Shown here piece by piece: positions 6,394-33,131 of a stretch of DNA of 41,204 nucleotides. The notes beneath the pieces are model-generated. The model was not told the DNA's origin. It did no database searches and saw only the letters and a program-made list of their open reading frames with translations. The position numbers and the translations under genes were made by a program. This DNA comes from Oscillospiraceae bacterium (GTDB taxonomy: Bacteria > Bacillota > Clostridia > Oscillospirales > CAG-272). The stretch is taken from NCBI GenBank assembly GCA_015064525.1, contig SVSC01000006.1, positions 1 through 41,204 on the forward strand, written 5' to 3'. Numbering within the stretch: position 1 is the stretch's first letter; every line of letters begins with the position of its first letter.

Positions 6394-6418
6394 ATGAAAG
6401 CTCCTTCCGTTTTTTTTC

Positions 6419-6447
6419 AGTATATCACAGAAAGGAAAGTTTGTCAA
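6419..6447 (-). promoter_or_regulatory. Sigma-A promoter of udk
   Basis: On the minus strand TTGACA (6447-6442), 17-bp spacer, TATACT (6424-6419). The -35 box is near-palindromic (tttgtcaa), and a plus-strand TTGTCA overlaps it, so the divergent genes could share the region. Confidence 0.8.
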
Positions 6448-6480
6448 CTCCTGTCGAAGGATTTGCATATGCTGATAGCA

Positions 6481-6497
6481 GGACGCCAAGGGCGTCC
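6481..6497 (+). other. Short hairpin just before the DUF11 ribosome binding site
   Basis: A ggacgcc/ggcgtcc 7-bp stem with AAG loop ends 10 bases before the AAAGGAG site. It may tune translation or mRNA stability. There is no T-run, so it is not a terminator. Confidence 0.45.
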
Positions 6498-6522
6498 AAA
6501 CCCGAACAAAGGAGACAACGCA

Positions 6523-7371
6523 ATGGCAACCTTTACCAATAAAGCCACCCTCAGCTACAGCGGCAGAACCACCGAATCCAATACGGTAACGGGAACCCTG
6601 CCCGAAACGCTGACGGTGACCAAGCAGCCGCTTTCCGACACCTACGCCCCCGGGGGTACCGTCACCTATGCGATTACCCTGATCAACGATGGCGCCGTGG
6701 CGCAAAGCGGCTTGACCCTCACCGATAATCTGGGCGCCTACGAGCTTACGGAGGGCGTCACCGTTTATCCGCTCACCTACGTTGGCGGCACCCTCACCTA
6801 CTACGTCAACGGTGTTTTGCAGGCAACGCCCACGATTGATGATGCCGTCCCTCTTACCGTTAGCGGTCTTTCGGTTCCCGCGGGCGGAAACGGGATCCTG
6901 CTCTATCAGGCAACCGCCAACGGCTTCGCGCCTCTTGAGGCGGGTGGCAGTATTGTGAACACCGTCACGCTGCAAAGCGTTGGCGGAGAGGTGGAAACGG
7001 CGTCGGCAACCGTTTTGGCGGAAGCCGACGCCCAATTGAGCATTGTGAAATCGCTCTCTCCCACCACCGTTCCCGAAAACGGCAGAGTCACCTATACCTT
7101 CCAAATTCTCAACACGGGAAACGAGGCAGCGGTGGCAACCGATAACGTGACCGTGACCGACCTCTTCCAGCCGATACTCAACGACATTACCGTCACCCTC
7201 AACGGTGCCGTGTTGGAGGAGGGAAGCGGCTACACCTACGATGAGGCAACGGGGCTGTTCACCACCGTTCCGAGCGTGATCACGGTTCCCGCCGCCACCT
7301 ACGTGTTGGGGGAGGACGGCTACACCGTGGTTCCCGGCTCGGCTGTGCTGACGGTTACGGGAACCATTTGA
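6523..7371 (+). CDS. DUF11 repeat protein without signal peptide
   Basis: A 282-residue protein of two DUF11-type (TIGR01451-like) beta-sandwich repeats, roughly residues 25-145 (LTVTKQPLSDTYAPGGTVTY) and 165-280 (LSIVKSLSPTTVPENGRVTY). The start ATG follows AAAGGAG; the track's longer version begins inside udk's promoter region. These domains are normally in exported surface proteins, yet here there is no signal peptide, membrane segment or sorting signal and no Cys. Function is unknown. Possible roles are a structural coat or spore-surface component, or a protein exported by another route; both are inference. Its stop codon abuts the stop of the convergent hydrolase (TGATCA). Confidence 0.8.
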   Translation: MATFTNKATLSYSGRTTESNTVTGTLPETLTVTKQPLSDTYAPGGTVTYAITLINDGAVAQSGLTLTDNLGAYELTEGVTVYPLTYVGGTLTYYVNGVLQATPTIDDAVPLTVSGLSVPAGGNGILLYQATANGFAPLEAGGSIVNTVTLQSVGGEVETASATVLAEADAQLSIVKSLSPTTVPENGRVTYTFQILNTGNEAAVATDNVTVTDLFQPILNDITVTLNGAVLEEGSGYTYDEATGLFTTVPSVITVPAATYVLGEDGYTVVPGSAVLTVTGTI

Positions 7372-8340
7372 TCAGAAACGCCGCAAAGGGAGTTCCCGAT
7401 GAATTTCAGCGTCCTCCCGTAAGGGGTGGATAATGAGATAGGCGCCGTTCAGCTCCTCCGCGAATAAGCGGACGGCGGTAATCTCCACGCTGTTGTAGGT
7501 GCGGTAATAGTAGACGCAGGATTCCAGACCGCAGCAGGAGGAGTAGAGCGTTCGGTAGAGCGGAGAGGCTCCGCAGCCCTGCACTTGGGAAACCGCTCCC
7601 AGCACGTGAAATGCCTGATGCACCGATTCCGAAACGCTTGCGGGGCGGTGGGCGCCCGCAAGCACAAGGGCGCCTCGCACAAAGCGAGCGGCAGAGGAGC
7701 AATCTCCGGGCAGAGGCGGAGCGGGCTCCGATAGATTCCGCTCCGAAAAGAGCTTTTCCTGAAGCTCCTTGGGAAACAGAGCGCTGTGGCGCGCAAGGGC
7801 TTTCCATTGCAGGGGGAAGGGAGGCTCGTTGGTGAGGACGTTTGCGGGATTGGGGTGAAGCTGAAGCCCTCTTTCCGTAATCTCGATCACCAAGGAGCCC
7901 TCCCGATCCGAAAGAAGCCAATGGAGGGGCTCGGCGGGCAACGCTTCCAAAAAACGGTGATCGGTGATGCAAATGCTTTGAAGCAATCGCTCCGCTTCCG
8001 CAATCGAGCGGCACTTTCCAAGCAGATAAGGAATCAGCTCAAAGGATGCCACGTTGTGGAGGTGATCATTGGACTTTTGGTATCGGGCGCTTTCGGCAAA
8101 CCGTAGCCCCGCCATGGCAAGCCCATGCTCGTTCACCGCGTCGAAATAGAGCGGATAATCCTCCAACACCTTTGCCATTCCGATGATGGCATAATGGTTG
8201 AGGTCGCTCTCCCCCGAGCGAAAGCGGAAGGGGTAGCGTCGCGGTGTGATCACAACGCTCTCTCCAAAGCTATGATCCCAATCTAAATTTCTGCCGAAAT
8301 AGCAGGCGTTTTCCGTGGAAAAACGTATGGCGGTACAGAT
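7372..8340 (-). CDS. Choloylglycine hydrolase family (bile-salt-hydrolase-like) Ntn hydrolase
   Basis: Predicted to cleave a linear amide bond, as in conjugated bile salts or penicillin V. The track begins at 8253, but the same frame upstream encodes the essential N-terminus CTAIRFSTENACYFGRNLDW: nucleophile Cys2, Arg17 and Asp20. Only ATC or ATT codons precede the Cys before the in-frame stop, so the start is probably ATC at 8340, 6 nt after GGGGGG. Later motifs include VNEHGLAMAGLRF and TNEPPFPLQ. At 322 residues it has normal length. There is no signal peptide, so the enzyme is cytoplasmic. An overlapping hairpin (8341-8386) could control it. Bile salt versus other acyl amide substrate is undecided. 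Confidence 0.85.
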   Translation of the reverse strand: MCTAIRFSTENACYFGRNLDWDHSFGESVVITPRRYPFRFRSGESDLNHYAIIGMAKVLEDYPLYFDAVNEHGLAMAGLRFAESARYQKSNDHLHNVASFELIPYLLGKCRSIAEAERLLQSICITDHRFLEALPAEPLHWLLSDREGSLVIEITERGLQLHPNPANVLTNEPPFPLQWKALARHSALFPKELQEKLFSERNLSEPAPPLPGDCSSAARFVRGALVLAGAHRPASVSESVHQAFHVLGAVSQVQGCGASPLYRTLYSSCCGLESCVYYYRTYNSVEITAVRLFAEELNGAYLIIHPLREDAEIHRELPLRRF

Positions 8341-8386
8341 AAAAATCCCCCCTTTTTTCGTATTATTTACGAAGGAAGGGGGGATT
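8341..8386 (-). terminator. Terminator-like hairpin overlapping the hydrolase ribosome binding site
   Basis: An 11-bp perfect stem aatcccccctt/aaggggggatt with an inner tcgta/tacga stem. On the minus transcript it lies 8 bases after the corrinoid-activator stop and is followed by ATTTTT, so it can act as a terminator. The right arm is also the GGGGGG ribosome binding site of the downstream hydrolase, so folding would also block initiation. Confidence 0.7.
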
Positions 8387-8394
8387 ATTCGGAT

Positions 8395-9894
8395 TTATTC
8401 AAAAAACATTCCCTCAACGAACCGATCCATAAAATAAGGGTCGGTGGAGAGGTCGATGGATTCCGCCTCCTTGGCAATCGCAAGAACGCGGGCTTCGGCG
8501 TCACGGTCCAGAAGCAGGGCGCAGGCGCCTGTGAGGGCGGCGTTGCCCAGCACCTGCACGCGGGAGCGGAGCGACGGGGGAAAGAGCCCGATTTCCGCGG
8601 CGGAGGAAAGATCCAGAAAGCTGCCGAAGCCGCCCGCGATCAGCAGTCGGTCGATCTGCTCCTCGCTTGCGCTTCCGCGAAGCAAAAGGGTGCGGATCCC
8701 CGCGCAAACGGCGCTTTTTGCCAGCTGAACCGCGCGGATGTCGCTTTGCGTCAGGTAAACCGTTTCCGAAAGATGATAGGGATCCTCCTCCAAAAGTCCG
8801 GTTTCGTCCAGCTCCTCCAGTCGGAGCAAACAGGCAACGGCATCAAACAAGCCGCTTCCGCAAATGCCTTGGGGGGCTTGTTCGCCAACGGTGGTGTAAT
8901 GGAGCTTGCCGTTCACGATCGACACGTGGTCGATGGCGCCGGGACGCCCCAGCATTCCGCAGGCAATGCCCGCTCCCTCAAAGGCGGGGCCTGCCGCCGT
9001 GGAGCAGCAAAGGAGACGGTCGTTGGCGCGCAGAAGGATCTCTCCGTTGGTGCCAATGTCGGCAAGCAGCGTGCCGTCCCGCGCTCCGTCTGCCTCAGCG
9101 GCAAGGAGGGCGCAGGTGCTATCGGCGCCAACGAAGGCGGAAATGCAGGGGGGGAGATAGACTGTCGCATCCTCGGAAAGGGCTTGGATGCCAAGCGCTC
9201 CCGCCTTGTGCCACTCGCCAAAGAGGCGATCGGCTTGGAAGGGGGCGTGGGAGAGGGGATGGGTTGGGTGGTTGGTGAGGAGGCATAGCATCACGGTGTT
9301 GCCCGTAATCACGGCACCGTCGATGGCGGCGGCGCTTATGCCCGCCTGCAGAGCAAGGGTCTCGGCAAGGTGGGAAATGGCATTCCGCACCAGCCGCGCC
9401 AGCTCATTGCCGTGCCCCGCCATGGACGCTTCGATGCGCGACATCACGTCGGCGCCAAAGCTGCCCTGGGGGTTGCGCTCCCCTGCAACAGCCAGTAATT
9501 CGCCGTTTTTTCCGTAAAGTCTTGCCGCCAGAGTGGTGGTGCCAATATCCACCGCCATGCCGTAGTCGGTAAAAACAGGGGAGAGGGACGAGAGACGAAG
9601 CTCGCCGTGGGTTTGCACCTGCACGTCGCCGTTCTCTCGGGTTAACACCGTGCAGCTGCCCAGCGCGCGGGCTTGGCAGGCAAGTCGCCAACCGCGGTTC
9701 AGGCGTTCTCCAAGCGCCGCCCGCTCGCTGTCGGTGGGCTCGGAAAGCGCTCCCTCGGCGCGCACCGCGCATTTGCCGCAGGAGCCCCGACCGTTGCAGG
9801 GGAGCTCTAAATGATGATCCTCCCGAAGAAGCTCGGAAAGCAGGATTCCCTCGGGAGCTTCGATGGAAGCTCCGTTTACGGTAACAAAGATCAT
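8395..9894 (-). CDS. RACo-like corrinoid activation protein (2Fe-2S plus ASKHA ATPase, DUF4445)
   Basis: COG3894-type proteins use ATP to drive low-potential reduction of inactive Co(II) corrinoid in methyltransferase systems. Residues 1-80 form a plant-type ferredoxin domain with Cys33, Cys39, Cys42 and Cys73. The ASKHA ATPase follows: DYGMAVDIGTTTLAARL, ADIGTNGEI and LIAGGFGSFLDL. At 499 residues it is shorter than typical RACo (about 600 or more), apparently lacking a linker/middle segment. The start at 9894 follows TGGAGG at 8-9 nt. No corrinoid protein or methyltransferase gene lies in this window, so its client is unknown. Confidence 0.88.
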   Translation of the reverse strand: MIFVTVNGASIEAPEGILLSELLREDHHLELPCNGRGSCGKCAVRAEGALSEPTDSERAALGERLNRGWRLACQARALGSCTVLTRENGDVQVQTHGELRLSSLSPVFTDYGMAVDIGTTTLAARLYGKNGELLAVAGERNPQGSFGADVMSRIEASMAGHGNELARLVRNAISHLAETLALQAGISAAAIDGAVITGNTVMLCLLTNHPTHPLSHAPFQADRLFGEWHKAGALGIQALSEDATVYLPPCISAFVGADSTCALLAAEADGARDGTLLADIGTNGEILLRANDRLLCCSTAAGPAFEGAGIACGMLGRPGAIDHVSIVNGKLHYTTVGEQAPQGICGSGLFDAVACLLRLEELDETGLLEEDPYHLSETVYLTQSDIRAVQLAKSAVCAGIRTLLLRGSASEEQIDRLLIAGGFGSFLDLSSAAEIGLFPPSLRSRVQVLGNAALTGACALLLDRDAEARVLAIAKEAESIDLSTDPYFMDRFVEGMFFE

Positions 9895-33068: not shown

Positions 33069-33081
33069 TTCTTGAAAATCG

Positions 33082-33115
33082 GGGGCAGTTCAATGCCGAC
33101 GCTTTGAACTGCCCC
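33082..33115 (+). other. 12-bp hairpin just before the TIM-lipoprotein ribosome binding site
   Basis: ggggcagttcaa/ttgaactgcccc forms a perfect stem with a 10-nt loop, ending 2 bases before the GGAGG site. There is no good T-run, so it may set the ratio between the two neighbouring proteins or mark mRNA processing. Confidence 0.65.
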
Positions 33116-33131
33116 TCGGAGGTTTTTGTTG

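Follow-up and report, generated by a model that had tools for sequence, protein, structure and literature searches.

Members of the CBAH/BSH/PVA family (PF02275) are united by a fold family, an N-terminal Cys nucleophile and an Arg/Asp/Asn/Arg catalytic set, and Ntn hydrolases are able to cut off pre-peptides. Regarding initiation, near-cognate AUU, AUC and AUA starts behind a strong Shine–Dalgarno (SD) sequence are described for infC-type genes and for cvfC1 and ccpN in S. aureus, and these codons are conserved among relatives. In S. aureus, AUU and AUA starts with extended SDs reach about 10% of AUG (PMC13009471), and AUC is among the seven strongest initiators in E. coli (PMC12350097). Termination and SD occlusion are combined ahead of one gene in the B. 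subtilis vmlR leader attenuator, where the hairpins are separate and a uORF and an antiterminator are also present (PMC9226507).

We compared these systems with a CBAH-family gene in the genome of an Oscillospiraceae bacterium; the window is the whole stretch of DNA that was analysed (41,204 nucleotides), and the features of the locus are collected in the table. The gene product shares the fold family, nucleophile and catalytic set of its family, but differs in missing the BSH cut-off, in an Arg at residue 80, in a shortened substrate loop and in its ATC start. As in infC, cvfC1 and ccpN, a near-cognate AUH codon stands behind a strong SD; however, the ATC is private to one genome. As in vmlR, termination and SD occlusion would precede one gene, but a single hairpin with no alternative fold would serve for both. 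Judged from its sequence, the locus resembles a normal compact junction between genes, to which a private start-codon substitution, or an error in its place, has been added.

Table. Features of the RACo–CBAH junction, in window coordinates
Feature	Position	Strand	Remarks
CBAH-family (bile-salt/penicillin-V hydrolase-like) coding frame	7372..8340	(-)	322 codons from ATC, plus TGA; PF02275 match
GTG that a gene caller would choose as start	8251..8253	(-)	costs the catalytic Cys and 29 residues
ATC codon at the start-codon position	8338..8340	(-)	212 relatives with ATG/GTG/TTG there
T-tract, terminator tail and SD–start spacer at once	8341..8345	(-)	sequence
Terminator-like hairpin	8344..8386	(-)	11+6 bp, -25.0 kcal/mol, SD in 3′ arm
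SD, AAGGGGGG	8347..8354	(-)	anti-SD duplex -14.1 kcal/mol; weaker in about 91% of relatives
RACo-type corrinoid activator, co-directional upstream gene	8395..9894	(-)	RACo_C_ter 1.8e-65, Raco_middle 9.2e-35 (Pfam); start set by SD and homology

The CBAH frame matches the PF02275 profile with an E value of 9.6e-70 and 236 bits, compared with a curated cut-off of 20.4, and solved BSH structures are matched across nearly the whole length of the protein. The catalytic residues C2, R17, D20, N171 and R219 are kept, and they are invariant in all 65 aligned proteins. Family membership of the frame is supported by the profile and these residues. The score against the NCBIfam BSH equivalog (NF038245) is 323 bits, under the 350-bit cut-off; therefore, the substrate assignment is left at the family level. 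The protein departs from near-invariant sites at the first codon and at residues 167, 209, 218 and 275, the last being Cys here and Gly in all 64 others aligned. The conserved GxGxxG substrate-side loop is shortened or missing in the window protein alone (region 7460-7770, minus strand), and the two sister proteins (L159 and L163, 47% identical) retain the loop as well as residues 167, 218 and 275. Residue 80 is Arg instead of the commonest Asn, an exchange also found in both sisters.

The start position was derived from the reading frame on the minus strand. The frame runs through GAA and the RACo stop TAA (8397-8395), then 18 codons (ATC CGA ATA ATC CCC CCT TCC TTC GTA AAT AAT ACG AAA AAA GGG GGG ATT TTT), the ATC at 8340-8338 and the TGT for the Cys of ICTAIRFSTENACYFGRNLDW. 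The sequence-only reading had proposed that no ATG, GTG or TTG lies between the upstream stop and the nucleophile, which we confirmed from the RACo stop onwards for the frame itself and for the frames able to shift into it. It had also placed the ATC 6 nt after GGGGGG, and this spacing is correct (G6 at 8352-8347). Since the ATC fills the start-codon position by homology and by its spacing from the SD, the proposed AUC start agrees with our analysis, and the assignment to 8340 is probably right. Exposure of the Cys at the N-terminus via Met removal is predicted to require initiation at this codon. The statement that the Cys must be residue 2 is too strong for the family, as four distant relatives (L131–L134) belong to a Gly-Cys type whose pre-peptide is longer. 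In these proteins the Gly before the Cys implies a removed pre-peptide, and the Cys is not residue 2. Frameshifting or slippage from an upstream ATG was rejected, because no frame contains ATG, GTG or TTG between the hairpin and the Cys and all frames are stopped upstream. The open-reading-frame listing starts the CBAH frame only at GTG 8253, which drops the nucleophile; gene callers thus lose the catalytic N-terminus of CBAH proteins when the start is not ATG, GTG or TTG.

To place the ATC among its counterparts, we examined the codon preceding the Cys in 212 relatives drawn from the genus, the family and the order of the window genome, including seven loci (L035, L057, L083, L099, L160, L172 and L180) that were missed or misplaced by the pattern and added by eye; the four Gly-Cys members stand apart from this tally. 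The codon is ATG in 197, GTG in 12 and TTG in three relatives, and no other codon occurs. The 5′-end comparison suggested together with the AUC proposal thus finds AUC conserved in 0 of 212 genes, and the ATC is therefore private to the window genome. It is separated from ATG by one substitution. The sisters have near-identical GGAGG..TTTT(T)-ATG leaders, TTTTGGAGGTTTTT-ATG and AAAGGAGGAATTTT-ATG, close to AAAGGGGGGATTTTT-ATC of the window. The nearest homologues are only 46–48% identical to the window protein, and what the ancestral codon and hairpin looked like is therefore deduced from distant genes. A search of the genus, family and order and one scan of genome contigs gave no closer relative, and viral contigs gave no strain-level evidence.

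The SD is strong and properly spaced, and infC of the same genome offers a direct comparison, with an anti-SD duplex of -13.2 kcal/mol and a start of GGAGGTGTTGAACT-ATT-AGC. In the same order, infC starts with ATC in G037, G039 and G042 and with ATA in G041, and the start is near-cognate in every genome read. Since relatives of the ATT-starting infC use ATC, the lineage does employ near-cognate starts, and AUH initiation in the window organism is possible in principle. Across the infC loci the near-cognate character is kept and the third base drifts: ATT in the window genome (L153) and its genus, ATC at L140, L142 and L144, and ATA at L143.

The CBAH gene lies 54 nt behind RACo, and the hairpin begins 8 nt from the RACo stop. 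The 11-bp stem containing GGGGGG described by the sequence-only reading is present, with 8386-8376 pairing to 8354-8344, and it is extended by an upper stem of 6 bp (8373-8368 with 8362-8357) closed by an AAUAA loop. Folded by itself, the hairpin has -25.0 kcal/mol; in this calculation the rows of L016 and L017, for which wrong frames had been picked, were disregarded. A 91-nt stretch with the hairpin has a z score of -3.9, which none of 200 shuffles matched, and the pairing probability of the stem is about 1.0 in contexts from 91 to 401 nt. The location of the SD inside the 3′ arm was likewise confirmed. The ATTTTT reported to follow the stem does exist; however, 3 nt of it lie within the stem, and only TTT separates the stem from the ATC. 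The hairpin combines the GC-rich stem and the U-tract of an intrinsic terminator, with the tail UUUUUAUC. The RACo relatives L022, L024 and L026 carry strong, sequence-unrelated terminators straight after RACo, with genes other than CBAH behind them; thus, the window hairpin is best read as the terminator of RACo, most likely as had been proposed. No second occurrence of CCCCCCTT-N-AAGGGGGG was found in the 2.18-Mb genome bin.

We then asked how common it is for an SD to be enclosed in a hairpin. SD-pairing hairpins of -15 kcal/mol or lower occur in 12 of 193 CBAH leaders (6.2%), compared with 2.3 expected from SD-keeping shuffles. Although this excess could indicate a regulatory hairpin specific to CBAH genes, unrelated neighbour genes with mechanically picked starts gave an equal rate (6 of 93, 6.5%), and this candidate was rejected. 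Compact junctions thus produce the overlap in general, and it does not mark control of this enzyme. A TTTTT immediately precedes the start codon in 16 of the 193 CBAH relatives, and wherever the upstream region of a hairpin relative was read (five of five), a co-directional gene ends 16–65 nt ahead of the CBAH gene. Most similar to the window are L216, with a 16-bp stem followed by TT-ATG, L229, with 17 bp followed by ATTTTT-ATG, and L110, with 10 bp followed by TTTT-ATG. At L216, L229, L117, L124 and an unrelated gene in L015, as in the window, a stop, a hairpin, an SD in the 3′ arm and a start follow each other within about 50–65 nt; all of these genes keep ATG, whereas the window gene has ATC. 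Terminators over the ribosome site of the next gene thus recur at compact junctions in the order, and the overlap by itself gives no reason to assume regulation.

Several of these junctions were inspected individually. The SD of the CBAH gene lies in an often perfect hairpin immediately behind a co-directional gene in L216/L243, L229/L244, L110/L245, L117/L246 and L124/L247; the T-tail runs into the ATG in three of them, and the sequences are mutually unrelated. An unrelated gene near position 2003 of L015 (minus strand) reads AAACTCCCTTTTGCA...TGCAAAGGGAGTTTTTTAT-ATG; its SD occupies the 3′ arm of a terminator-like hairpin that stands directly before the ATG. The window itself contains a second hairpin at 33080-33131 on the plus strand, where GGGGCAGTTCAA/TTGAACTGCCCC is followed by TCGGAGGTTTTTGTTG-ATG in a gap of about 60 nt between co-directional ORFs, with the SD just outside the stem.

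Attenuators and riboregulators depend on a mutually exclusive antiterminator or a ligand domain, and neither was found at the locus. The best upstream partner of the C-arm reaches -10.3 kcal/mol compared with -18.8 kcal/mol for the hairpin, so no competing antiterminator fold was recognized, and an Rfam search for a riboswitch or known RNA gave no family above its gathering score. On the minus strand no sigma-70 match was found; a relaxed promoter scan gave one 8/12 match at 8456-8429 and otherwise AATAAT hexamers without a -35. A -10-like AATAAT in the loop (8367-8362) would yield an RNA without the 5′ arm and is unsupported. The tight control proposed by the sequence-only reading is thus not borne out, given the unconserved ATC, the equal frequency of the overlap in neighbour genes and the lack of an antiterminator.

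The explanation we favour, at about an even chance, is that ATG was replaced by ATC in a gene that is mostly silent and in which AUC supports weak translation at best. The RACo–CBAH gap would hold only the intrinsic terminator of RACo, with its 3′ arm and U-tract doubling as the SD and spacer of the CBAH gene, presumably as a result of gene compaction like that at other junctions of these genomes, and a single substitution in the window genome would have changed the start codon. RNA polymerase leaving RACo would mostly halt at the hairpin, and readthrough RNAs would carry a stem-locked SD and an AUC start. Any translation would begin at 8340, led by the strong SD, on a minority of RNA reading through or starting inside the hairpin; CBAH output is expected to be very low, and no switch is indicated. 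Counting against a private substitution, the known deliberate cases likewise pair a strong SD with a near-cognate start. The genome is a draft bin of 149 contigs with 81.6% completeness, so an assembly error at the ATC base is a candidate: the true genome would have ATG at 8340-8338 and an ordinary CBAH gene behind a terminator. The absence of ATC from every relative fits such an error, as does the position after G6 and T5 runs beside an inverted repeat, a hard sequencing context; we nevertheless consider it unlikely, since single-base consensus errors are rare, an exchange of G for C leaves homopolymer lengths unaltered and the remaining CBAH frame is clean. Early decay after loss of the start, leaving a gene that is no longer translated, is also improbable, although the missing GxGxxG loop, the changes at three other near-invariant sites including C275, the terminal branch (second longest of 65), the locked SD and the lack of a promoter all point in this direction. 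The 322 codons are free of stops and the catalytic residues are all intact, and of five outgroups used in a relative-rate test against L159, three gave no significant difference and two a borderline one (chi2 0.7–4.3); clear decay is therefore not shown.

A deliberate combination of AUC start, SD occlusion and termination, acting as a switch or dosage limiter, appears very unlikely. It would draw on the pairing of a strong SD with a near-cognate codon known from infC and cvfC1, and on the 8-nt distance between the RACo stop and the stem, at which a terminating E. coli ribosome represses terminators (PMC4824070), so that translating RACo could prevent termination and free the SD at once. However, the ATC is not conserved, the overlap is general, no antiterminator was found and the terminating ribosome would cover only the foot of the stem. 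Bacillota, the phylum to which the genome most likely belongs, are moreover classed as uncoupled, with runaway transcription (PMC13323073), which makes coupling to RACo translation only a minor possibility. Slimmer still is the chance that AUC is truly settled in the lineage and that the RACo terminator forms a one-hairpin lock on transcription and translation, opened by RACo translation. Production of the CBAH domain through same-frame readthrough of the RACo TAA, followed by self-cleavage before the Cys, is extremely unlikely. A single in-frame stop separates RACo and CBAH, and pre-peptide removal is within the reach of Ntn hydrolases; yet UAA is the least leaky stop, all seven further RACo relatives that were read lack a CBAH frame directly behind the gene, and the strong SD would serve no purpose.

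If the AUC is real and translated, this would be an ordinary enzyme gene with a near-cognate start private to its genome, comparable with infC of the same lineage. At its other end, the CBAH gene meets a convergent plus-strand gene (6394..7371) tail to tail, with no gap (7371/7372).
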